DNA from: Saprospiraceae bacterium
GTDB taxonomy: Bacteria; Bacteroidota; Bacteroidia; Chitinophagales; Saprospiraceae
Reading direction: 5' to 3'
DNA: 64,000 nt
Assembly (NCBI GenBank): GCA_029263015.1
Contig: JAJCYI010000142.1
Location: 1 to 64,000, forward strand
The translations under genes were made by a program, and so were the position numbers. Shown here piece after piece: positions 54,851 through 64,000 of this stretch. The notes beneath the pieces were generated by a model, which was given only the letters and a program-made list of their open reading frames with translations, searched no databases and was not told the DNA's origin. Numbering within the stretch: the stretch's first letter is position 1; the number at the start of each line of letters is the position of its first letter.

Positions 54851-55297
54851 TCAAACCCCCATCCTAAACTGCACCACCCGAAATGTCTCCTCAAACCCTT
54901 CCCGAAGGTAAAATTGCTGTGCCCGTCCGTTTTCCAATTCGGTATCAACGGCCAGTTCGGTGCAGCCTGATTCCCTTGCCCATTTTTTTATAAAAACAAG
55001 CATTTCTTTGCCGAGGCCTTGCCCTCGGTATTTTTCATTTAAATAAAGCCCGTCGATATAGGCAACGGGAGAGGAGGTGCAGCCTTCCACAATATTGCGG
55101 AAGGATAATTCAATCATGCCGACGGGTTCAGTTTTATCTTTTTCTAAAAATACGAGGTAGGAGCAAAGGTCAGGAGCGCTGATAATGCGCTTGATTTCAG
55201 TCTCGATATATTCAGGTTGGAGGTCTCCGTACAGTTCGTCGCGGAAGCGGCACCAAGTGTCAAAATCATCGAGGGTAGCAAGCCGGAAGTGGAGCAT
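54851..55297 (-). CDS. GNAT family N-acetyltransferase
   Basis: 148 residues. Acetyl-CoA motif: YIDGLYLNEKYRGQGLGKEM with RGQGLG, and the end strand VDTELENGRAQQFYLREGFE with the Asn and Tyr positions of the family. Resembles the AAC(6')/aminoglycoside-like branch in general form, but substrate cannot be named. Confidence 0.88.
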   Translation of the reverse strand: MLHFRLATLDDFDTWCRFRDELYGDLQPEYIETEIKRIISAPDLCSYLVFLEKDKTEPVGMIELSFRNIVEGCTSSPVAYIDGLYLNEKYRGQGLGKEMLVFIKKWARESGCTELAVDTELENGRAQQFYLREGFEETFRVVQFRMGV

Positions 55298-55324
55298 ATT
55301 AAAAATTAATTGAGAATTGAGAAT

Positions 55325-55413
55325 GAACCACAGGGGACACGGGGAGCACAGAGAAAGTCATTATTTCCGCCAGAGGCGGGAATCCCCTGTGCTCCCCGTG
55401 TCCCCTGTGGTTC
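55325..55413. repeat. Inverted repeat with perfect 27-base arms
   Basis: GAACCACAGGGGACACGGGG and seven more bases, repeated as a complement at 55387-55413, with a small inner CCGCC/GGCGG stem. Lies between the GNAT gene and the exosortase partner gene. Related to the repeat at 30000-30087. Confidence 0.85.
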
Positions 55414-55414
55414 G

Positions 55415-56053
55415 CTATTTATCACCAAAAAAGTTACCGATGTCGTTCTTTTTAACCGTCGTCAATGCCCAAATAACAAATGTAGAGATGAAGATAAATT
55501 CAATGCTCTGCATGTTGAACACCCCGTAAATGTATTTTTCCGAAAAAGAAGAAAGGCCAAGAGGTTCCAGAACAGGGGACTCAAGGGCATAATATTTCAA
55601 TGTACAGTGAAAACGGTGGAAGGTGAACAGCGCCAAAATAAAGCTACCGACTAAAAAGGAAATGCCTTTTCGTTTCCACGAAATAGGAGAAGCCAGCACG
55701 AGGGCAATCAGCACTATAAACTGCAATAGGAAGTAATCCCAGACGCTGAAATACGAAGAACTGACATCGAGGTTGGCGGTCTGTTGGCCAGCTTGCCTGG
55801 CAGCATCAATTTTTGCTTCTTTTGTTTTGGTGTTCATATATGTGATGACGAGGTCGTGTTCGCCACCACCTTCCGCTGGGGAAAAACTTGCTTCAGCATC
55901 GGGGATAAAAGTGCGATAGGTGCCTGTGGCCCAATTGGCAAAGGATTGGGTGAAGCCACTGCGAAAACCGCTGACTCCAGCCAAGATGACCAGCACCAGA
56001 TAGACCGCCAAAAAAGTCAAAGTAAAACGGGCAATTTTAGGAAACTTGGGCAT
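55415..56053 (-). CDS. Exosortase-associated membrane protein, copy 1
   Basis: 212 residues. One N-terminal membrane helix (FTLTFLAVYLVLVILAG), an outside loop of about 90 residues (ending SSSYFSVWDYFL), then three to four helices (LLQFIVLIALVLASPISW, ISFLVGSFILALFTF, FIFISTFVIWAL). The same size and plan as the protein at 61344-61988, and each lies directly downstream of an exosortase gene. This corresponds to the exosortase H-associated membrane protein. Role unknown, likely a partner in substrate handling. Confidence 0.8.
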   Translation of the reverse strand: MPKFPKIARFTLTFLAVYLVLVILAGVSGFRSGFTQSFANWATGTYRTFIPDAEASFSPAEGGGEHDLVITYMNTKTKEAKIDAARQAGQQTANLDVSSSYFSVWDYFLLQFIVLIALVLASPISWKRKGISFLVGSFILALFTFHRFHCTLKYYALESPVLEPLGLSSFSEKYIYGVFNMQSIEFIFISTFVIWALTTVKKNDIGNFFGDK

Positions 56054-56065
56054 CGGCAGGTGGTT

Positions 56066-56230
56066 TAGGAACGGTGAATAAATAAGTCGAGGTTCATGGG
56101 TCGGTTGTTTTGTTATTAGTTTTTGCTTTAAAAGAGGGAGTTATGTTGATATAGTGACTGATTTTAAAGTGAAAAATAAAAGCAAAAAAAGTAGCCAAGA
56201 ATCTTGATTTATTTATTCACCGTTCCTTAG
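56066..56230. mobile_element. 165-base MITE-like element, copy 2
   Basis: Terminal inverted repeats begin AGGAACGGTGAATAAATAAG at left and the near complement at right; the interior shares TTAGTTTTT, GGAGTTAT, TTGATATAGTGAC and TTTTAAAGT with the element at 7148-7312, also 165 bases. Its right end lies within the last codons of the exosortase gene (KER and stop), and its left end is 12 bases before the ATG of the partner gene. Confidence 0.65.
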
Positions 56231-56795
56231 TGACCCAGTGGAGCCAATAGAAAAAATAGAGGATGGCCAGCCCGATAAATACAACCTGCCAGAACTCTAT
56301 GTGCATGAACTCAAAATAATCAGGCGCATAGACCCCCACAAAATACAGGGTAATGATGCGGAACAGGTTGAGTGCAAACAAAGACACCACGCCGATGCCG
56401 ATGCCGGCCAGTTTTTTGCGCCTATCGGACGGGAACAACAATATGCCAGTCACCACCAGCATGATCGGGGCAATGGCGTCGCAGCCTTTTTTTATCAACA
56501 ATAAATAATCATCTGATATGATCGACATGCCTTTGGCTGTGGTACCCTGTCCCATCAGGCTGAGGAGGCCACTGCTGATATGGGCGAAAAAAGTAGAGAC
56601 GGGCTCCTGGATGTTTTCGACATAAAACGGCTGAATGGCAAGGATGTAAAACAACAGCATGATGCCAGCAAATCCCAACCAGAATTTGACAATAGGCTTT
56701 CGCTCCCCCAAACTATTTTCCCACCAGTTTTTCAAACCTCCAGTGGAACTGGGCTTTTTCTTTGCTTGGGATTTTCTGGTTTTCTTTTTAGACAT
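56217..56795 (-). CDS. Exosortase of the XrtH (IPTLxxWG) type, copy 1
   Basis: 192 residues, usual for the short exosortases. Catalytic set visible: Cys105 in LLIKKGCDAIAPIML, Arg146 in ALNLFRIITLYFVG, His165 in FEFMHIEFW. Six to seven membrane helices after a lysine-rich start (MSKKKTRKSQAKKK). It should recognise a C-terminal tag on secreted proteins, cut and transfer them at the inner membrane. Downstream is its membrane partner; upstream are two substrates with IPxMGEWG tags. The last residues come from a miniature element. Confidence 0.85.
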   Translation of the reverse strand: MSKKKTRKSQAKKKPSSTGGLKNWWENSLGERKPIVKFWLGFAGIMLLFYILAIQPFYVENIQEPVSTFFAHISSGLLSLMGQGTTAKGMSIISDDYLLLIKKGCDAIAPIMLVVTGILLFPSDRRKKLAGIGIGVVSLFALNLFRIITLYFVGVYAPDYFEFMHIEFWQVVFIGLAILYFFYWLHWVTKER

Positions 56796-56822
56796 GAATG
56801 AGTTTTAGTGAAACGTTGTAGT

Positions 56823-56870
56823 ACGAATCCCCAGATTCATACAAATAGACTTACGAATCTGGGGATCCGT
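56823..56870. repeat. Inverted repeat upstream of exosortase 1
   Basis: 19-base arms with CGAATCCCCAGATTC (two mismatches) around a 10-base loop. It is similar in feel to the hairpin at 31368-31401. Confidence 0.6.
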
Positions 56871-56909
56871 ATTACATTGAGTTCGCCAAAATTAAGAAAG
56901 CTCCAACAA

Positions 56910-56949
56910 AAATAAAGGCAATACCCAATCTTGGATACTGCCTTTATTT
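56910..56949 (-). terminator. Terminator after exosortase substrate 1
   Basis: AAATAAAGGCA / TGCCTTTATTT stem with trailing T, 31 bases after the stop of the 56981 gene, so the substrate and exosortase 1 have at least partly separate transcripts. Confidence 0.75.
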
Positions 56950-56980
56950 CTGCATTTCAGAATCTGCAAATTCCGCACCA

Positions 56981-58381
56981 TCAGCTGTGGCTTTTAACAG
57001 AAAATAGCAAGTGCAGCAAATAAGCCAGTGCCGGCCCCGCTATCAAGCTCCCCGGCAAATCCACTGCCGTCATTTCATAGCCGAATACGGAAACTGCAAG
57101 AACAAAAGTCGCTGCCAGTCCAATCATCACATATACCAACATTTTACCAAAAGAAGAACGGTCGAAAGGAATGCCTTTGCTTTGGGTAGCCATATTTCCA
57201 GCACCTACCAAAGCTGTCTGGCGGCGCATCATGGAGACCGTAGCAAATGACAGCAGGAACAAAGCCAAAACGATAAGTCCCCATTCACCCATAGCTGGAA
57301 TCCCCAACACTGGGCAGGCATTGCAGGTGCCACCGGTCATCAAGGGGAACGGAAAGCCGCCTGCGGTACGGTCAACGGTGACGTTAAAACCGACACCGAC
57401 AGGATGCCAGAGGTTTAGTTTGTAAATGCCAGGTGATATTTCAGGAAGGGTGGTGCCTAAAGGAATGGCCACCAGTCCGTTGTCGAAGATGGCGCCGCTG
57501 TTGAGTGCGGTGATCTGCCAAGTCTCGCCAGGCCCAGAATTGACCAGTACAAAATCGTGGAAATGGGTGATGTTGCCACCGCCGTCGATGATATTCAAAG
57601 GGTCGCCACAGGCACAAGGGTCAGTAATGTCAGGTGTGCCGTCGCCATCTTCATCGGTCTGACTGATAGCAGGGGCCACATTCGCTTTCAAAGTGAGCAT
57701 TATATCACTTGAAATATCAAAATCGTCAAAAGGGGTAATATTGATGACGTCACATTCGGGCGCAAATAGCCAGGTGGTAGCCCCTTCGTCAAAACCATAA
57801 CCCATCCGAAAAGCAACACCAAGGTTGCCAGGGGTAATTATTTTGATCACCACTTCATCACCAGGTATGGCCACGCCGGAAGGCGTGAGGGGTATATCTA
57901 TTGGGTTCGTGCCGGTCATGGTTGATTGGATGATGGCAGAAGATGCTATTTCGGTAAATGTCCCGCTCGGAAAGGGAAAACCAGTGTGGACGGAAATAAC
58001 AACTTGAAGGTTGGCGCCTACCGCCGAAGCTCCTTCAACTATTACGCTTGCTTGAGTGAACTCCACAGCATCGGTGCCTGGCAGAATCAATTTTCGGTAA
58101 TGTTCGCTATAATACGTGATGTCCAGCGGGCCATCTGAGCAACCGATTCCCTGATCAAAAACAGCTGGGCCAAGATCGAACATCACCATGGCTGATTTCT
58201 GGGCATCATTTGCTGATGGGAGGTTAAGGTTACCTTTTCCATTTGTCATATCGAAGTTGGAAAAGAGGCTGGGGCTAAGGGCTTGGGCCTGCAAAATTTC
58301 TTGGCCGGTAAAAAATGCCAGCATCAGGATTATCAAGTTGAAAATCCTTTTGTTCAATCGAGTGGTAAAATATGTTCTCAT
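56981..58381 (-). CDS. Exosortase substrate 1: secreted protein with extended IPTL-like tag
   Basis: 466 residues. Signal peptide (LIILMLAFFTGQEILQAQ). N-domain of about 200 residues (VFDQGIGCSDGPLDITYY) of unknown kind. DEDGDGTPDITDPCACGDPL begins a calcium-type loop and a Cys-bearing domain that ends GGTCNACP. The tag is LGIPAMGEWGLIVLALFLLS followed by FATVSMMRRQ. Unlike usual IPTL-CTERM proteins, about 80 residues follow: a linker, IPFDRSSFGKMLVYVMIGLA, FGYEMTAVDLPGS and a last helix. It lies upstream of exosortase 1. Confidence 0.85.
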   Translation of the reverse strand: MRTYFTTRLNKRIFNLIILMLAFFTGQEILQAQALSPSLFSNFDMTNGKGNLNLPSANDAQKSAMVMFDLGPAVFDQGIGCSDGPLDITYYSEHYRKLILPGTDAVEFTQASVIVEGASAVGANLQVVISVHTGFPFPSGTFTEIASSAIIQSTMTGTNPIDIPLTPSGVAIPGDEVVIKIITPGNLGVAFRMGYGFDEGATTWLFAPECDVINITPFDDFDISSDIMLTLKANVAPAISQTDEDGDGTPDITDPCACGDPLNIIDGGGNITHFHDFVLVNSGPGETWQITALNSGAIFDNGLVAIPLGTTLPEISPGIYKLNLWHPVGVGFNVTVDRTAGGFPFPLMTGGTCNACPVLGIPAMGEWGLIVLALFLLSFATVSMMRRQTALVGAGNMATQSKGIPFDRSSFGKMLVYVMIGLAATFVLAVSVFGYEMTAVDLPGSLIAGPALAYLLHLLFSVKSHS

Positions 58382-58729
58382 AAATTAAAACTGGGTTTGG
58401 TATGGATATGAACCAAGCCTGCCAACATTGAAATAAATGCCACAGGTTGTTCGAATTGAATGCTGATATTAGGAAAGGAGAAACTATTTACCGGAAAGGA
58501 AGCTATTAAAGAGCACAAGCATAAAGCAAGCCAAAACCTTCATTATATTCTGAAATATAGATTGTTACGCATGAAAAATTAAAATGATTGGTAACGCTTG
58601 CCCAGTTTTGAGGTGACGCCTTTGGGCGTGGCGGAGCGGGAAGGGGAAGGTGTTGATTGAAAAATCCTTTATTGAAATGTCTGAGGCTTCCGATCGAACC
58701 GCCGCCAAGGCGATCCGATCGATCTTTGG
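58382..58729. other. Intergenic region between substrates 1 and 2
   Basis: Promoter region of substrate 1, with a GATCGAACCGCCGCC / GATCCGATCG patch just before the long repeat. No gene seen. Confidence 0.4.
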
Positions 58730-58913
58730 AAAAAGTATTTGATCCAGGTGTCGGACGCCCTTCGAGGCGTCGGACACCTGGAAGGTAAGGCTCGGTGTCC
58801 GACGCCTCAAAGGGCGTCCGACACCTGAATTAACAAGCCGTCTAAATTTGGAAAGTGAGGTAGTTAAATCGTTCGGTCGGATCGGCTAAGCGCCGGTCCG
58901 ATCGAGTAGCGCC
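58730..58913 (+). repeat. About 184-base composite repeat, copy 1 (R1)
   Basis: Begins AAAAAGTATTTGAT, then four GTGTCSGACGCC units in two palindromes, then a non-palindromic tail (TTGGAAAGTGAGGTAGTTAA, TCGTTCGGTCGGATCGGCTA, GAGTAGCGCC). A second copy in the same direction is at 61011-61189. Confidence 0.85.
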
Positions 58914-58960
58914 AAGCCATTTGCTAAATGCAGGAAAAAACCAAAAACCAAAAAAAACCG

Positions 58961-58992
58961 AACCCTGCCTCGCCGGCAGGCAGGCAATAACC
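58961..58992 (-). repeat. GTTATTGCCTGCC repeat, copy 1 of 3
   Basis: Minus-strand GGTTATTGCCTGCCTGCCGG, then CGAGGCAGGGTT. Other copies at 61223 and 62007, plus strand. Confidence 0.75.
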
Positions 58993-58994
58993 AA

Positions 58995-59029
58995 AAGAGG
59001 TGTTAGCACAGTCAGCGCTAACACCTCTT
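58995..59029 (-). terminator. Terminator after exosortase substrate 2
   Basis: AAGAGGTGTTAGC / GCTAACACCTCTT, perfect 13-base arms with a 9-base loop, then TTTT on the minus strand. Confidence 0.85.
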
Positions 59030-59052
59030 CCTTGTCATTATCTAACGTCGTA

Positions 59053-60444
59053 TCAGTCCTTTTTGGAAAGCACCAAGTGCAGCAGATAAGCCAACGCTGG
59101 CCCTGCCAACAAACTGCCCGGCACATCCGCAGCTGTCATTTCATAACCGAATGCAGAAACCGCAACTGCAAACGCAGCAGCCAGACCAATCATCACATAA
59201 ACGAGCATTTTAGCAAAAGAAGCTTTGTCGAAAGGGATGCCACTGCTCTGCGAGGTCACATTCCCAAAACCTGCGATGGCCGTCTGGCGGCGCATCATGA
59301 ACACGGTGGCGAACGACAGGAGCAGCAATGCCAATATGATAAGTCCCCATTCGCCCATGGCCGGAATACCCACCAAAGGACAGGCATTGCAGGTGCCGCC
59401 CGTCACCAAAGGGAAAGGCCCGCCGCCCGCAGTACGGTCAACGGTGACATTGAAACCGACGCCGACCGGGTGCCAAAGGTCGAGTTTGTAAACGCCCGGT
59501 GATATTTCAACCAAAGGAGTATTTAAAGGGATGGCCACTAGGCCATTGTCGAAGATGGCGCCGCTGTTGAGTGCGGTGATCTGCCAGGTCTCGCCGGGGC
59601 CGGAAACGACCAGCACAAAATCATGGAAATGGGTGATCTGGCCCATGCCGTCTATGATGTTGAGGGGGTCGCCACAGGCACAGGGGTCGGTGATGTCGGG
59701 GTTGCCGTCACCGTCCGAGTCGGTCTGGCTGATGGTGGGGTCCATAGCAGTACCTTCAATGATAAAAGGAAAACCTTTACTTCCAGTATCGGCTATGGAG
59801 TTGTACGTTCCTCCATTATTTAAAGACTGTCTGGCGTTCCCAGTTTGCCCTTGTCCTAATATGGTGACGGGAGGAGCCCAAGGGCCAGAACCAAGTGTGC
59901 CATTTGTTTGCCAGGCCAACCAATAAGTGCCAGGCCCCAGCACGGTATTGACATTGACCACATTCTTCATGATAGGGCGGTTGGTAGCACTTCCCATTGT
60001 AGTTTCTGTCACCCTGTATATACCCGACCAGGTGGTACTGGCCATACGGTTGGTGGTCAGATCCCCAAAAACAAGGTTGCTGCCAACTTCATTTGGTGGC
60101 CCGTCCCAAATCTGTAACCTTACTTCGGTAATAGTGGATGCAGTGCTGGAGCCTGTTTGATAGGCATAAAAAGTAATGGTGGAAACATTCCACATGCCAC
60201 TTGAAACGGTAAAATCATCGGCAACTACATTTTGGAAATTGACTTGATGGCCCCATCCTAATATATTGTCCCCCAAGGTAATAGTCTGAAGGATAGATTC
60301 ATCCGCCCCTCCCGACCCGCTGCCGGGGCTATTGACCAGTGGGCCGTTGTCATAAAGTACAGCTCCCAATGAAAGGGAAATACTTGTGGCAACTAAAAAA
60401 AGCAGGAGGCAGAGCCTCTTTATTGTTGAGATTATAATTTTCAT
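59053..60444 (-). CDS. Exosortase substrate 2: secreted protein with extended IPTL-like tag
   Basis: 463 residues. Signal peptide (LLLFLVATSISLSLG). N-domain opens VLYDNGPLVNSPGSGSGGAD and has VADDFTVSSGMWNVSTITFY, a form I recall from exosortase substrates of Proteobacteria. SDGDGNPDITDPCACGDPL, the HFHDFVLV strand and GGTCNACPL are as in substrate 1. Tag: VGIPAMGEWGLIILALLLLS, then FATVFMMRRQ, linker, IPFDKASFAKMLVYVMIGLA, FGYEMTAADVPGS, final helix ending LSKKD. It is nearly the same as substrate 1 from the Cys domain onward, but unrelated before it. Flanked by the two long direct repeats. Confidence 0.87.
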   Translation of the reverse strand: MKIIISTIKRLCLLLFLVATSISLSLGAVLYDNGPLVNSPGSGSGGADESILQTITLGDNILGWGHQVNFQNVVADDFTVSSGMWNVSTITFYAYQTGSSTASTITEVRLQIWDGPPNEVGSNLVFGDLTTNRMASTTWSGIYRVTETTMGSATNRPIMKNVVNVNTVLGPGTYWLAWQTNGTLGSGPWAPPVTILGQGQTGNARQSLNNGGTYNSIADTGSKGFPFIIEGTAMDPTISQTDSDGDGNPDITDPCACGDPLNIIDGMGQITHFHDFVLVVSGPGETWQITALNSGAIFDNGLVAIPLNTPLVEISPGVYKLDLWHPVGVGFNVTVDRTAGGGPFPLVTGGTCNACPLVGIPAMGEWGLIILALLLLSFATVFMMRRQTAIAGFGNVTSQSSGIPFDKASFAKMLVYVMIGLAAAFAVAVSAFGYEMTAADVPGSLLAGPALAYLLHLVLSKKD

Positions 60445-60487
60445 TGTTCAATATTTACAGGATTAAGAAAAAAAGATTTGTTCCAGG

Positions 60488-60745
60488 TTATTCCTCCAAG
60501 AAGCCAAGGGCCCAATCGCAATATTCAACTGCGGCGGTGTTCCCCTGTTCGAGGCAGGTCTCCCTTAATTCCTGAAAATATTCTATTTTTTCTGTTTTGG
60601 TCTGAGGTAAGTTGCTGGTGTCTGCTCCCTCACTTGCAGACATATTGGCTTTTCCGTTTTGCTGTGCATAGACCCAGCCTACCATGGGCAAAGCCAAAAC
60701 CATTACAATAAGGAGCACCCTTTTAAGGGCATTTCGATTTTTCAT
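60488..60745 (-). CDS. Small secreted protein upstream of substrate 2
   Basis: 85 residues from ATG 60745; the frame extends 15 codons further up with no better start. Signal peptide (RVLLIVMVLALPMVGWVYAQ). The mature 58 residues are acidic with two cysteines (ETCLEQGNTAAVEYCDWAL). It precedes substrate 2 by 43 bases and is likely co-transcribed. No family recognised. May be a helper or just a passenger. Confidence 0.75.
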   Translation of the reverse strand: MKNRNALKRVLLIVMVLALPMVGWVYAQQNGKANMSASEGADTSNLPQTKTEKIEYFQELRETCLEQGNTAAVEYCDWALGFLEE

Positions 60746-61010
60746 AAGATAATAATTGTTTAAACAGTGTTTATAAATCGTGTCCGGCAACCATGAAAGC
60801 CACAGTGGCCAAACGGAAAGTCTGAGAACAGGTCAATCTTTAGATGTCAGTAAACCGGTACAGGGAAGGTGAAAAGTCTAAACGAGGTGAGTATCATAAA
60901 ACTCCAAATATTTTGGAGACACCTTAGAACAGCACAAAGTAAGCCAAAAGTTGGTGAATATCCAAATGGGGGGGCTTGGTCAAAAAGCTCCTTTAACCAT
61001 TATGGATACA
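60746..61010. other. Intergenic region upstream of the small secreted gene
   Basis: Should hold the promoter for the 60745/60444 pair. No gene seen; GC-poor with no clear consensus. Confidence 0.35.
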
Positions 61011-61189
61011 AAAAGTATTTGATATAGGTGTCGGACGCCCTTTGAGGCGTCGGACACCGAGTATTACCTTGGTGACCGACGCCTAAATGGGCGTCCGACA
61101 CCTGATAAACAAGCCTCCTAAGCTTGGAAAGTGAGGTAGTTAAATCGTTCGGTCGGATCGGCTAAGCGCCGGTCTGATCGAGTAGCGCC
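61011..61189 (+). repeat. About 180-base composite repeat, copy 2 (R2)
   Basis: Same order of parts as R1 at 58730: AAAAAGTATTTGAT, palindromic GTGTCGGACGCC units, then the TTGGAAAGTGAGGTAGTTAA tail and GAGTAGCGCC. Palindrome loops differ, the tail is nearly identical. Confidence 0.85.
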
Positions 61190-61222
61190 CAACCGGTTCC
61201 AAAGGGAGGGGGCTTGGTTGCT

Positions 61223-61253
61223 GGTTATTGCCTGCCTGCAGCGAGGCAGGGTT
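61223..61253 (+). repeat. GTTATTGCCTGCC repeat, copy 2 of 3
   Basis: GGTTATTGCCTGCCTGCAGC, then GAGGCAGGGTT. Confidence 0.75.
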
Positions 61254-61343
61254 CGGGGTTTTGGGTTCACAATTCCTCTGCCAAATTCATGGTCAGCACG
61301 TATTTTGTTTTGTAACTAATTGATAATTAATATTTTATAATCA

Positions 61344-61988
61344 TCACTCGTCACTCATCACTAACTTCATATGTTCGATGTTCCGTTTGCTGAACACCAA
61401 CAATGCCCATATCAGGATGATGACAATGAAGATCAGCCCGAGGGACGTCAACAGGTTGTTGAGTTTGTGCAGGGAGAGGAAGGAATCGGGATTGCTTTCG
61501 TACAGCCCGATGTCGAGTTGGCCGATCTCGTACTTGAGCCTGATGGTCATCCTGAAAAAGGAATAGAGGTAGAACAGGACAATGCCAACACCTGCCAGTG
61601 CGAACCGCCTGCCCCAGGCAAGTGGCGTCGCAAGGAACAGTGCAATGAGGAATGCCAAAGCCATATTGATATGGTAGGAAGGGTCAATGCCGTAATCGTA
61701 TTTTGGAACATTTACCATGCCTGGCTTGCCAGATTTTTTGATTTCACGTACCATCTGGTCTGCCTGTTCCCTGCTGTAAAAGTTGAATTTGATCTCCCCG
61801 TTTTCGGAAACCGCCTCGGCGTTTAATTCCACCTCAGGAAGGAATCGCTGGAGCACATTCCCAAATATCGCAGCGTTTGCCCCGGCCAATCCGTTCCTGA
61901 TGCCTGTTATGGAAACCATAACTTGGAGCAGGATAAAAACCAACCAAAATATCCCAAAATGTTTCAACAATTTATTTGGATTCAGCAT
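61344..61988 (-). CDS. Exosortase-associated membrane protein, copy 2
   Basis: 214 residues. N-terminal helix (FGIFWLVFILLQVMVSI), outside loop with VPKYDYGIDPSYHINM, then helices ALAFLIALFLATPLAW, FALAGVGIVLFYLYSFFRM and LGLIFIVIILIWALLVF. Same plan and length as the protein at 55415, little residue identity by eye. It lies 70 bases after exosortase 2 on the same strand. Confidence 0.8.
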   Translation of the reverse strand: MLNPNKLLKHFGIFWLVFILLQVMVSITGIRNGLAGANAAIFGNVLQRFLPEVELNAEAVSENGEIKFNFYSREQADQMVREIKKSGKPGMVNVPKYDYGIDPSYHINMALAFLIALFLATPLAWGRRFALAGVGIVLFYLYSFFRMTIRLKYEIGQLDIGLYESNPDSFLSLHKLNNLLTSLGLIFIVIILIWALLVFSKRNIEHMKLVMSDE

Positions 61989-62006
61989 GGAAGCAAGGTG
62001 TTATTT

Positions 62007-62038
62007 GGTTATTGCCTGCCTGCCGGCGAGGCAGGGTT
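62007..62038 (+). repeat. GTTATTGCCTGCC repeat, copy 3 of 3
   Basis: GGTTATTGCCTGCCTGCCGG, then CGAGGCAGGGTT, between exosortase 2 and its partner gene. Confidence 0.75.
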
Positions 62039-62058
62039 ATTGGTTATTGATTTGGGGT

Positions 62059-62670
62059 TCATTCACCATTCACCATTGCCCTCCGCTGGTTCAATACTTT
62101 GATGACCCAATAGCCCCAGATGAGCATGGTGATGCTGATGAAAATGACAAATCCGCCCTGGACGTGCAGCAGCTCAAACAATGCCTGAGAACCTTTGGCG
62201 CCGGCAAAGTAGAGCATTGGCAGCCGGAGAATGTTCAAAATAGTAAGTACTCCAACTCCATATAACAATCCTCTTCCCTTTTCCGGCCAGCTGGAAGGAA
62301 ATGCCAAAATCCCAGCTACCAAAAGTGCCGTGACTTCCAGCCCATCGCAGCCCCCAGAAACACTCATCCTGAAAGTATCGCCAGAAATGGTTTCTCCAAT
62401 TGCTGTTACAGGCTGTCCCATTATTCCAAGCAGGAAAGCACCAATATTGGCTTGGCCATTTAAAAGATGTGGGTGGATATGAGTCAAGTTGAAGTCGGAA
62501 TAATAAAAAGCATAGAATGCACCGATCATAAGTGCAAAGACGCCGAGGAAACGCAGTGAAACACTTTGGTTGCGCCAGTAGGTTTTGAGCCTTGAGCGCA
62601 AAGTTGGTCCCGAGGCAGTTCCCCTTTTTTTTGAATGACGTTTAGAATTTTTATTTTTTTTACTGGCCAT
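62059..62670 (-). CDS. Exosortase of the XrtH (IPTLxxWG) type, copy 2
   Basis: 203 residues. Cys108 in RMSVSGGCDGLEVTALLVAG, Arg149 in LNILRLPMLYFAG, His169 in ALFELLHVQGGFV; the SGGCDG form is closer to the canonical exosortase motif than in copy 1. Lysine/serine-rich start, then six to seven membrane helices. It should process tagged secreted proteins at the inner membrane. Its nearest substrate (62873) is upstream and closed off by its own terminator. Confidence 0.88.
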   Translation of the reverse strand: MASKKNKNSKRHSKKRGTASGPTLRSRLKTYWRNQSVSLRFLGVFALMIGAFYAFYYSDFNLTHIHPHLLNGQANIGAFLLGIMGQPVTAIGETISGDTFRMSVSGGCDGLEVTALLVAGILAFPSSWPEKGRGLLYGVGVLTILNILRLPMLYFAGAKGSQALFELLHVQGGFVIFISITMLIWGYWVIKVLNQRRAMVNGE

Positions 62671-62796
62671 TTTCGAGATGAAATAAAAAGTTTGAGTTAG
62701 TCAAGTTTATGATGACTGGGTGATGGTTCTTGTTGTAACGAAAGAATAAATCAACAGATGCAAAAATCAATAAAAAAAACTGTTGATTGAAATGCT

Positions 62797-62841
62797 ATCA
62801 AAAAATCCCGAATTCCAGTCCTATGCCAGAATTCGGGATTT
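62797..62841 (-). terminator. Terminator after exosortase substrate 3
   Basis: AAATCCCGAATTC / GAATTCGGGATTT perfect arms, then six T on the minus strand, 32 bases after the stop. Confidence 0.85.
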
Positions 62842-62872
62842 AAAAAATTGGGAGTTTCAATTTCCCAATTTC

Positions 62873-64000
62873 CTATTTCTTTTTTACAAACAAATGAATC
62901 AAATAGGCCAACATAGGCCCCGCCACCAGACTGCCCGGCACATCCGCCGCAGTCATTTCATAACCGAATGCAGAAACCGCTACGGCAAATACCGCAGCCA
63001 ATCCGAACATTACAGCGATGAGCATTTTACCGAAAGAAGCTTTGTCGAAAGGCAATGTGAATTTGTTGTTAGAGACAGTAGTCCCGTATCCAGCCATTAC
63101 AAGCTCACGCTTGCGCAATGCCACCACACCGAAAGTCAATATGAGCAGGGACAATAGTATTAATCCCCATTGGCCGAGGGTCGGTACTTGCTTACAAGCG
63201 GTACAGGTGCCACCCTCCATCAATGGAAATGGGCCACCGCCAGCAGTCCGGTCAACCGTCATGGTAAACCCGACACCTGGCGGATGGAACAGGTCGATGC
63301 GGTAAATACCTGAGCCGGGAGGTGTTTCCGTCAGCCCATCGCCGATCACGATGTTCGTTGCGCCTGCATCGGAATATGCCATGGCTGAAACAGCCGCCAC
63401 TTCCCATGTTTCTCCGGTCATGGAAGTGACCTCTACAAAATCGTGAAAGTAAGTGATGTCGCCGTCTGCGTCATAAAAGTTCAAAGGATCACCACAGGAG
63501 CATGGATCGAAGCTGGTAGGGTCATTGGGGTTGGTTTGGCTGATGGTTGGGCAACCAGGGCCCAGTCCTGGGTCTACGGTTGCATAAGTGGAGGATGTGC
63601 ATGATGGGTCTGTGCTGCAACGGGCTGTGGCCGTATGCATGCCGGGTGTGACATTCATGAAAACATTGGAGGCCTGAAACGGCCCACCATCGAGGGAGTA
63701 TTCCAAGGTACCCGAACAGCCCATGGCAGAAGCGGTAATGGTGATCTTCCCATCATTGGTATTGCAGGAAGTTTCATGAGTGGGCGTGGCCGATGCAGTG
63801 ATCGAACAAGTTGGGCATGTTGAAAGTACAAGAGTACGTCCATCTGCTCCGTTTCCTCCGTCCGAACCAGTGGTAGAACTGCTACCGCCTGAAATATCCA
63901 GGGTTGCCAAAGCTACATTAGGGGGTGGACAGGAACTAAGTTCAATCGAACCGCCAGACCCGCCACCGCCAGCCCCTGAACTACAATTACCAATAGCACC
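62873..64000 (-). CDS. Exosortase substrate 3: secreted Gly-rich protein with extended IPTL-like tag, 5' end missing
   Basis: At least 375 residues; the frame is open to the window edge, so the start lies outside. The visible N-part is glycine/serine-rich (GNCSSGAGGGGSGGSIEL). A repeat-like domain follows (TASATPTHETSCNTNDGKIT, GTLEYSLDGGPFQASNVFMN). The Cys domain is FDPCSCGDPLNFYDADGDIT to GGTCTACK, without the DxDGDG loop of the other two. Tag: VPTLGQWGLILLSLLILTFG, then VVALRKRELV; then the tail, LPFDKASFGKMLIAVMFGLA, FGYEMTAADVPGS, LIHLFVKKK. It is the most canonical tag of the three. Confidence 0.85.
   Translation of the reverse strand, partial: GAIGNCSSGAGGGGSGGSIELSSCPPPNVALATLDISGGSSSTTGSDGGNGADGRTLVLSTCPTCSITASATPTHETSCNTNDGKITITASAMGCSGTLEYSLDGGPFQASNVFMNVTPGMHTATARCSTDPSCTSSTYATVDPGLGPGCPTISQTNPNDPTSFDPCSCGDPLNFYDADGDITYFHDFVEVTSMTGETWEVAAVSAMAYSDAGATNIVIGDGLTETPPGSGIYRIDLFHPPGVGFTMTVDRTAGGGPFPLMEGGTCTACKQVPTLGQWGLILLSLLILTFGVVALRKRELVMAGYGTTVSNNKFTLPFDKASFGKMLIAVMFGLAAVFAVAVSAFGYEMTAADVPGSLVAGPMLAYLIHLFVKKK

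Follow-up and report, generated by a model that had tools for sequence, protein, structure and literature searches.

A two-helix hairpin, fused to IPTL substrates or encoded separately, is a probable accessory subunit of XrtH-like exosortase systems in Saprospiraceae

CTERM sorting signals usually sit at the extreme C-terminus of the proteins that carry them and, to our knowledge, little is known about how exosortases recognize their substrates or which extra proteins they require. The closest described system is exosortase H (XrtH, TIGR04177) with its IPTL-CTERM substrates (TIGR04174 / PF18203). A related NCBIfam model, midcut-by-XrtH (NF033207), describes, judging by its name and layout, an IPTL-like XrtH signal located inside the protein. 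In the excerpts of a study of Flavobacterium johnsoniae, exosortase F (XrtF) is listed beside an associated protein, and deletion of either is listed as giving the same biofilm and colonization defects (PMC10936215). Searches of the open-licence literature found nothing on midcut-by-XrtH, exosortase H/XrtH, exosortases with IPTL-CTERM, or Saprospiraceae exosortases, and nothing on exosortases with an "associated membrane protein".

The window (the whole stretch of 64,000 nucleotides analyzed) contains, between positions 54851 and 64000, two XrtH-like exosortases and two partner membrane proteins interspersed with three substrates, A, B, and C (Table 1). A fourth tail-bearing copy lies immediately beyond the window end, at contig positions 65115-67508. 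The first gene of the interval (54851-55297) appears acetyltransferase-like by eye and falls outside the system. The locus resembles the XrtH/IPTL-CTERM system in its best exosortase model, in substrates that pass IPTL_CTERM, and in Cys, Arg, and His columns that are invariant across 68 aligned exosortases of the fetched set. Unlike in that system, the exosortases here score below the family cut-off, the substrates run on after their IPTL helix, and a hairpin subunit is present in addition. The preliminary description brought in XrtH-type exosortases; TIGR04177 is the top NCBIfam model for both enzymes, which nevertheless score below its 86-bit cut-off (77.2 and 61.0 bits). Both enzymes pass TIGR04178 (cut-off 23 bits) and PF09721 (cut-off 25.7 bits), and exosortase 1 has no solved relative at E <= 1. 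The two partner proteins are related to one another (E 6e-12), and neither matches a Pfam or NCBIfam family over cut-off. The AlphaFold2 model of partner 2 (pLDDT 83) consists of helices and a small beta part, with no PDB fold match at E <= 0.001. The pairing of an exosortase with an associated protein is shared with the XrtF system (as excerpted in PMC10936215), but neither partner here matches the NCBIfam model of the XrtF-associated family at E <= 1, and the same excerpts mention no hairpin subunit (PMC10936215).

Table 1. Features of the exosortase locus (window positions; cut-offs for the bit scores are 86 for TIGR04177, 23 for TIGR04178, 25.7 for PF09721, and 20.5 for TIGR04174).
Feature	Position	Strand	Length (aa)	Remarks
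Partner membrane protein 1	55415..56053	-	212	3' of exosortase 1
Exosortase 1, XrtH-like	56217..56795	-	192	TIGR04177 77.2 bits, TIGR04178 50.9, PF09721 40.5
Substrate A, IPTL signal and fused tail	56981..58381	-	466	TIGR04174 28.6 bits
Tail hairpin of A	56984..57175	-		
IPTL motif, helix, and basic patch of A	57212..57301	-		
Cys-containing conserved domain N-terminal to IPTL motif, in A	57302..57670	-		
Substrate B, IPTL signal and fused tail	59053..60444	-	463	TIGR04174 25.8 bits
Tail hairpin of B	59056..59241	-		AlphaFold2 helices 171-196, 204-226 (numbered in the modelled stretch)
IPTL motif, helix, and basic patch of B	59278..59367	-		
Cys-containing conserved domain N-terminal to IPTL motif, in B	59368-59736	-		
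Partner membrane protein 2	61344..61988	-	214	
Exosortase 2, XrtH-like	62059..62670	-	203	TIGR04177 61.0 bits, TIGR04178 48.5, PF09721 49.6
Substrate C, in-window part	62873..64000	-	630 (full ORF)	Full ORF reaches contig 64765; TIGR04174 32.7 bits
Tail hairpin of C	62876..63058	-		
IPTL motif, helix, and basic patch of C	63101..63187	-		
Cys-containing conserved domain N-terminal to IPTL motif, in C	63188-63547	-		

All of the parts originally described in the three substrates are present: an IPTL-like motif, a helix, and a basic patch, followed by a block with PFDK and two helices that places the signal about 80 residues away from the extreme C-terminus. The layout runs from the IPTL segment through a linker to PFD(K/R), a helix, FGYEMTA(A/V)D(V/L)PGS, and a final helix. 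TIGR04174 scores over its cut-off in A, B, and C, and PF18203 (cut-off 20.8 bits) is passed only by C (33.1 bits; A 17.3, B 20.4). Hydropathy and AlphaFold2 agree on three helices, which the model places at residues 127-155, 171-196, and 204-226 of the modelled stretch (mean pLDDT 72). Conservation of the block was also borne out, with identities to the tail of B of 77% for the tail of A and 79% for that of C; the domain preceding the IPTL motif, which has beta strands in the AlphaFold2 model, is 88% (A) and 57% (C) identical to its counterpart in B. The tails of A and B match the tail profile at E 6e-40 and 3e-40, both being members of the profile itself. A profile built from the three window tails only (n=3) recovers nine stand-alone ORFs in the regions of other genomes (E 3e-17 to 2e-6), and the tail similarity is therefore not due to chance.

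The tail does not correspond to an existing family model, since none of 23 tails scanned against Pfam and NCBIfam exceeded any model's cut-off. What matches there were came singly and were weak, such as one to PIG-P from one stand-alone protein (E 0.0012 for the whole protein, 0.0023 for the tail segment), which was put down to composition. Searching solved structures with the tail profile gave two matches (E 9.2 and 9.7), neither of them credible. The fold search with the substrate C-terminus gave two matches at E <= 0.001, both to chains of the translocon-associated protein (TRAP) complex at a query TM-score of 0.21; these were not used because query TM-scores were low, at most 0.23 throughout the best 50 matches. 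The mid-protein XrtH signal pointed out in the preliminary description is present here, and signals of this kind are already recognized by NCBIfam as NF033207. Substrates A, B, and C match positions 34-65 of the 175 in that model, which is the IPTL part only, with 15.6, 15.8, and 26.5 bits against a 45-bit cut-off. No genome among 73 searched from the phylum contained an over-cut-off NF033207 match, and the 23 tails gave no match to this model at E <= 0.1. Membership of the tail in NF033207 was rejected at the HMM level, a comparison made with the model rather than with its member proteins, and a very distant C-terminal tie is possible. On the best reading, the hairpin is a new accessory component of an XrtH/IPTL system and lies outside Pfam and NCBIfam (23 tails scanned).

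Beyond the window, 100 regions picked from earlier search matches were fetched and yielded 82 tails, of which 47 are fused and 35 stand alone as hairpin proteins of 63–130 aa (these fractions, and those that follow for the fetched regions, describe that set only). The claim that the block is no more than a piece of the sorting signal was not upheld, given that many relatives encode this hairpin in a gene of its own. For 21 of the 35 stand-alone genes, an exosortase gene is found no more than 700 nt away (19 on the same strand, all upstream of the exosortase, and 2 divergent). The other 14 have no exosortase gene within 700 nt, some of their contigs being short, and for 3 of these an exosortase gene follows 3.4-4.2 kb downstream. 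An IPTL substrate gene is located upstream on the same strand, overlapping or at a distance of up to 225 nt, for 14 of the 35, and in 3 of these 14 the stop codon overlaps the start codon. The IPTL proteins examined as examples in stand-alone genomes end 30-36 residues past the start of the motif.

Co-occurrence of tail and exosortase was found within the family. Among 248 family genomes, 47 contain the tail, 53 contain XrtH, and 46 contain both (Fisher p 2e-41), where the tail and XrtH searches are presumed to cover identical genomes, and where XrtH counts are matches at E <= 0.001 that are mostly under the family cut-off and are read as XrtH-like. A TIGR04177 match over cut-off occurs in 12 of the 248, and the XrtH search also matches the control Methanosarcina acetivorans, below cut-off. 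Tails thus accompany an exosortase gene in 46 of 47 tail-positive genomes but not invariably, the exception being a genome that is 90% complete in ~630 contigs (G544). IPTL proteins were counted in the 54 family genomes with XrtH or tail, for which the per-genome counts are complete. They occur in 48, comprising all 47 tail-positive genomes and G504, which has two IPTL proteins, the examined one bearing a divergent tail (20 bits); the six genomes without IPTL matches have no tail match either. In the window genome, IPTL matches and tails number 8 each, every tail being fused, and fused-only genomes in general approach one tail per IPTL protein. In 29 of the 47 tail-positive genomes, by contrast, the sole tail match is stand-alone and none is fused, against 1-33 IPTL matches (e.g., a single stand-alone tail alongside 30 IPTL matches in G627). 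The absence of tails from the IPTL proteins of stand-alone genomes refers to tail counts at E <= 0.001, a threshold that misses very divergent tails (the one in G504, one in G462, and one in G503). A broader profile gave matches in 14 of the 29 stand-alone-only genomes, 13 of which still have one tail and one of which (G503) has two. When IPTL matches were relisted in 7 of the 54 genomes, one of three in G579 was without a tail match and lay in a stop-containing frame. An association between the fused form and few substrates (median 1 versus 4 IPTL proteins, p 0.006) was dropped: it relied on the initial assignment of genomes to the two forms, G503 later proved mixed, and genome G708 of family f12 has 15 tail matches in long frames.

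The tail is probably a small two-helix accessory subunit of the XrtH-type exosortase system, supplied either separately (in trans) or fused to the substrate (in cis). This reading follows from the homology of the two forms, the gene order, the co-occurrence with XrtH-like genes, the near-complementary distribution, and the repeated changes of form, all of which are established at the level of sequence comparison, and the helper looks as if it had been moved repeatedly onto the proteins it helps to sort. An alternative, in line with the preliminary description, takes the tail as an extended C-terminal sorting signal that is recognized in cis and then discarded: all eight tails of the window genome are confined to IPTL proteins, and in the fetched set the tail begins 11-33 residues past the IPTL segment (47 fused proteins) and at most 12 residues follow the hairpin in 82 of 82 tails. 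However, stand-alone genes encode the same domain, often adjoining an exosortase gene, and serve as the only tail match in 29 of 47 genomes with 1-33 IPTL matches, which largely refutes this explanation for the family as a whole and leaves it very unlikely. It is scarcely credible that the fused forms are read-through artefacts of annotation or assembly, or that frameshifts in fused genes account for the stand-alone forms. In some loci (L052, L121, and L144) the two ORFs share one base, and single errors there could interconvert the forms. Against this, the window genome has eight stop-free fused copies on five contigs, four of them elsewhere in the genome than the cluster, and four of the eight do not adjoin an exosortase gene. 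Moreover, 29 genomes have one stand-alone match and no fused match at the search threshold, and the XrtH tree shows the two forms in clusters (none of 500 shuffles gave so low a value). That tree requires 7 changes between fused and stand-alone forms, at least 4 of them on strongly supported branches, and includes a sister pair (L055 and L144) of which one member is fused and the other split.

A further explanation accepts the hairpin as a helper but gives it a modulating or escorting role in place of docking: it would keep the substrate, or the helix once cleaved, in the membrane, slow down cleavage, or direct the remnant toward degradation. The hairpin itself, its acidic outside loop, and the roughly one copy per substrate when fused agree with such a role, and stoichiometric use in cis suits an escort as well as a docking part. 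The frequent position beside the exosortase gene and the covariation with the partner protein instead favor a component of the machine, and the escort role is considered unlikely. Tails were paired with exosortases in 42 locus sets and additionally with partners in 33 and 33. With XrtH held fixed, tail-partner covariation is 0.39 (0 of 2000 permutations; 33 locus sets), while tail-XrtH covariation with the partner held fixed is 0.04 (618 of 2000; 33 locus sets), and a plain-identity version gives the same picture (0.41 and 0.06; 33 locus sets), all of these statistics leaving shared ancestry in. The earlier suggestion that the block binds the exosortase partner protein is thus weakly favored by a test that retains common descent.

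As an accessory subunit, the separate form, often encoded in the exosortase operon, would act in trans. The hairpin is predicted to lie in the inner membrane with both ends cytoplasmic, the net charges being +1.4 in the N-flank, -1.9 in the loop, and +0.35 in the C-flank. Its acidic loop, E-x-T-x-x-D-x-P-G, would then face the periplasm, where the active site of the exosortase and the IPTL motif are likewise expected. The hairpin may serve to dock the IPTL helix on the complex of exosortase and partner, probably through contacts made chiefly with the partner membrane protein, as the weak tail-partner covariation suggests, and so allow XrtH to cut at the IPTL motif. Once a fused substrate is cut, a three-helix remnant (the IPTL helix and the hairpin) would stay in the membrane. 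A more tentative proposal, somewhat less than evenly likely, is that the subunit was transferred several times to its own substrates, so that each brings along its own copy of a part the exosortase needs, used only once and left behind after cleavage as the three-helix remnant, with the Glu-x-Thr-x-x-Asp-x-Pro-Gly periplasmic loop presenting the IPTL motif to the enzyme and partner. The existence of one helper in two forms, encoded by its own gene or built into a substrate, amounts to a natural experiment; it names a new component of the system and suggests direct contact among substrate, exosortase, and partner. Furthermore, proteins of these environmental bacteria do not always stop where their IPTL signal ends, and cleavage assays should look for products differently.

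The distribution of the tail outside the family indicates that XrtH-like systems generally do not need it, since in a phylum sample of 345 genomes (again presumed identical for both searches) the tail was found in 4, one of them weak, versus an XrtH match in 102, and since two loci from other families (L077 and L078) have an ordinary IPTL gene followed by XrtH with no hydrophobic ORF in between. Within the window's own genus, clear tails occur in 3 of 14 genomes (G000, G004, and G010).

Each of the two exosortases in the window lies beside a membrane protein, designated partner 1 or 2, and among secreted substrates A, B and C (see table). Both exosortases find their best NCBIfam model in exosortase H (XrtH, TIGR04177), exosortase 1 at 77 bits and exosortase 2 at 61 (cut-off 86), and both exceed the cut-offs of the superfamily model TIGR04178 and of Pfam PF09721. 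All three substrates pass the NCBIfam cut-off for IPTL_CTERM (TIGR04174), and substrate C alone among them passes the Pfam IPTL model. In each, the IPTL helix and basic patch are followed by a short linker and then by the tail, a block of 60 residues containing two hydrophobic stretches. The AlphaFold2 model of a substrate's C-terminal part shows three helices preceded by a beta domain, at moderate confidence (pLDDT 72). These model matches, the linker and block layout and the predicted helices confirm the preliminary description's observation that three window proteins carry an IPTL signal and then a conserved extra C-terminal block. Just past the window end, at contig positions 65115-67508, is a fourth such substrate. 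The partners match no Pfam or NCBIfam family over cut-off, and a fold search with the partner membrane protein found no solved fold at E <= 0.001 (the AlphaFold2 model of partner 2 is of fair confidence, pLDDT 83).

Exosortase locus in the window, listed in order of transcription
Feature	Position	Strand
Substrate C	62873 to beyond window end	minus
Exosortase 2	62059-62670	minus
Partner 2	61344-61988	minus
Substrate B	59053-60444	minus
Substrate A	56981-58381	minus
Exosortase 1	56217-56795	minus
Partner 1	55415-56053	minus

Other features of the locus include a conserved domain of ~120 residues ahead of the IPTL motif in substrates A, B and C (57302-57670, 59368-59736 and 63188-63547), with the pattern CxCGDPLN ... 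HFHD ... DRTAGG.PFPL..GGTCxAC, beta strands in the AlphaFold2 model and no Pfam or NCBIfam match in scans of the whole proteins. Between the two exosortase groups, a small ORF of 100 aa (60488-60790; TTG start as called, ATG inside) begins with a sequence resembling a signal peptide and matches no Pfam or NCBIfam family over cut-off. Substrate B is flanked by nested palindromic repeats of the GGTGTCGGACGCC... type (58730-58833 and 61010-61105), accompanied on either side by a 99-nt direct repeat (58829-58927 and 61105-61203).

A profile of the window C-termini detects eight copies in the window genome, each with an IPTL part and a tail part. In relatives, the same profile matches whole IPTL-plus-tail proteins, IPTL parts only, and short open frames matching the tail only, which their context identifies as real genes. 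Among 82 tails from 100 fetched regions, 47 are fused to a substrate and 35 are stand-alone genes of 63-130 aa; the tail is thus, as judged from sequence, a separate domain, and the earlier reading of it as merely a conserved part of the sorting signal is not borne out. Most stand-alone tails (21/35) lie less than 700 nt from an XrtH-like gene (19 upstream on the same strand, 2 divergent), and at 17 of these 21 loci a partner gene is also beside the exosortase. An IPTL gene lies upstream of 14 of the 35, in the same orientation and either overlapping or at most 225 nt away; at three loci (L052, L121 and L144, the last read in the DNA) the IPTL stop overlaps the tail start. The IPTL proteins read as examples from stand-alone-tail genomes end 30-36 residues past the motif start, as do ordinary IPTL-CTERM proteins.

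Across 248 genomes of the window genome's own family (Saprospiraceae), 47 have a tail, 53 an XrtH match, 46 both and 194 neither (Fisher p 2e-41 for co-occurrence). "XrtH" in these counts means XrtH-like, since most matches in family genomes do not reach the family cut-off and a match short of it also occurs in one control genome of 14 (Methanosarcina acetivorans). One genome (G544) has a tail without an XrtH match, and seven have the reverse (G024, G034, G478, G504, G511, G554 and G569), the matches of G034, G478 and G554 being weak. When the 53 XrtH-matching genomes and G544 were searched for IPTL proteins, 48 of the 54 contained them, namely all 47 tail-positive genomes and G504, in which the one IPTL protein read of two bears a tail of divergent sequence (20 bits, E 5e-4 for 20,000 sequences); the six without IPTL have no tail match. 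Five tail-bearing genomes from outside the family sample, detected with the profile of the window C-termini (G004, G010, G061, G081 and G099), also contain XrtH, and a sixth, G052, has neither an XrtH match nor any match beyond IPTL parts. At one G052 locus (L039, match at 1441-1620), the open frame continues 241 residues from the IPTL motif start; it includes an apparent second secretion signal, is unlike the tail, and may represent either a merger of two genes or a further mid-protein signal. In the phylum sample, tail matches occur in 4/345 genomes at E <= 0.001 and XrtH matches in 102/345; the four are the window genome, two others of its family, and a fourth whose weak match (9.7e-4), in a frame of 575 residues, is probably due to chance. 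Tails occur in 3/14 genomes of the window's own genus. A broader profile applied order-wide matched 50/396 genomes, 30 from the own family, 13 from the neighbouring family f12, 2 from family f2 and 5 from other families, the last all weak (E 3e-4 to 1e-3). The relatives that have names (11 loci) are metagenome assemblies of Saprospiraceae and Phaeodactylibacter, apart from one whose label is simply Bacteroidetes bacterium.

In the 23 members scanned, the tail is covered by no Pfam or NCBIfam model. The nearest named idea is the NCBIfam family midcut-by-XrtH (NF033207), which already has an XrtH signal inside the protein; at the HMM level, the window proteins match its model around the IPTL motif only, and its cut-off was reached in 0/73 genomes of the phylum. 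Two loci from other families of the phylum (L077 and L078) contain an IPTL gene, then XrtH, then a further membrane-protein ORF, with no hydrophobic ORF of at least 50 residues between the IPTL gene and XrtH, and the tail therefore appears to have been added, in this lineage specifically, to a system of a known type. Among the papers listed from an open-licence library, no title or abstract beginning pointed to an XrtH accessory protein; PMC10936215 deals with exosortase F.

Classified by frame, the tail-positive family genomes comprise 14 with fused tails only, 29 with stand-alone tails only and 4 with both. The fused-only genomes have 32 IPTL matches versus 30 tail matches; the broader profile recovered a fifth tail in G462, and the other surplus IPTL match, from G579, is in a frame containing a stop. 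Each of the 29 stand-alone genomes has a single tail match versus 1 to 33 IPTL matches, the highest counts being 33 in G503 (mixed once the broader profile added one fused copy) and 30 in G627. Heavy use of the apparently fused form is not limited to genomes with few substrates, as three f12 genomes have 15 (G708), 9 (G691) and 8 (G687) tail matches, all in frames at least 321 residues long. On a tree of 49 exosortases, 45 of them labelled (24 alone, 21 fused), the fewest changes between forms is 7 (5-7 in bootstrap trees), of which at least 4 are forced by strongly supported branches, and the labels are clustered (0/500 shuffles as low), so the pattern is not random error. The exosortases of L055 (G057, fused) and L144 (G598, split) pair as sisters with branch support, and the tails of the two loci resemble each other. 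Another G598 locus (L135) has two adjoining exosortase-partner pairs on opposite strands, with two fused substrates.

While these comparisons document the domain history of the tail and its association with the exosortase system, the tail's conservation, predicted topology and covariation with the partner lead us to infer that it would act as a docking subunit by which the IPTL helix is brought to both exosortase and partner. Conservation across the 82 tails is highest for Asp (98%), Gly (91%), Tyr (88%), Pro (83%), Ala (80%) and Leu (78%), with Phe (74%), Thr (73%) and Glu (71%) next. Of these residues, the inter-helix loop contains Glu, Thr, Asp and Gly and the final helix contains Tyr, Ala and Leu, while Pro and Phe precede the first helix. 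An acidic loop and a basic N-terminal flank would, under the positive-inside rule for membrane protein orientation, place the tail ends inside and the loop outside. Exosortase active sites are on the outer side of the membrane, and the loop is thus predicted to share a side with the active site and the IPTL motif. Since no Lys or Cys is conserved in the loop across the 82 tails, a role as acceptor in a transfer reaction is unlikely. Tail distances correlate with exosortase distances (r 0.54, 42 pairs, 0/2000 permutations). In 33 triplets, the correlation of tail with exosortase is 0.04 when the partner is held fixed (618/2000 permutations), and that of tail with partner is 0.39 when the exosortase is held fixed (0/2000 permutations, shared ancestry still included), which weakly suggests that the tail contacts the partner membrane protein.
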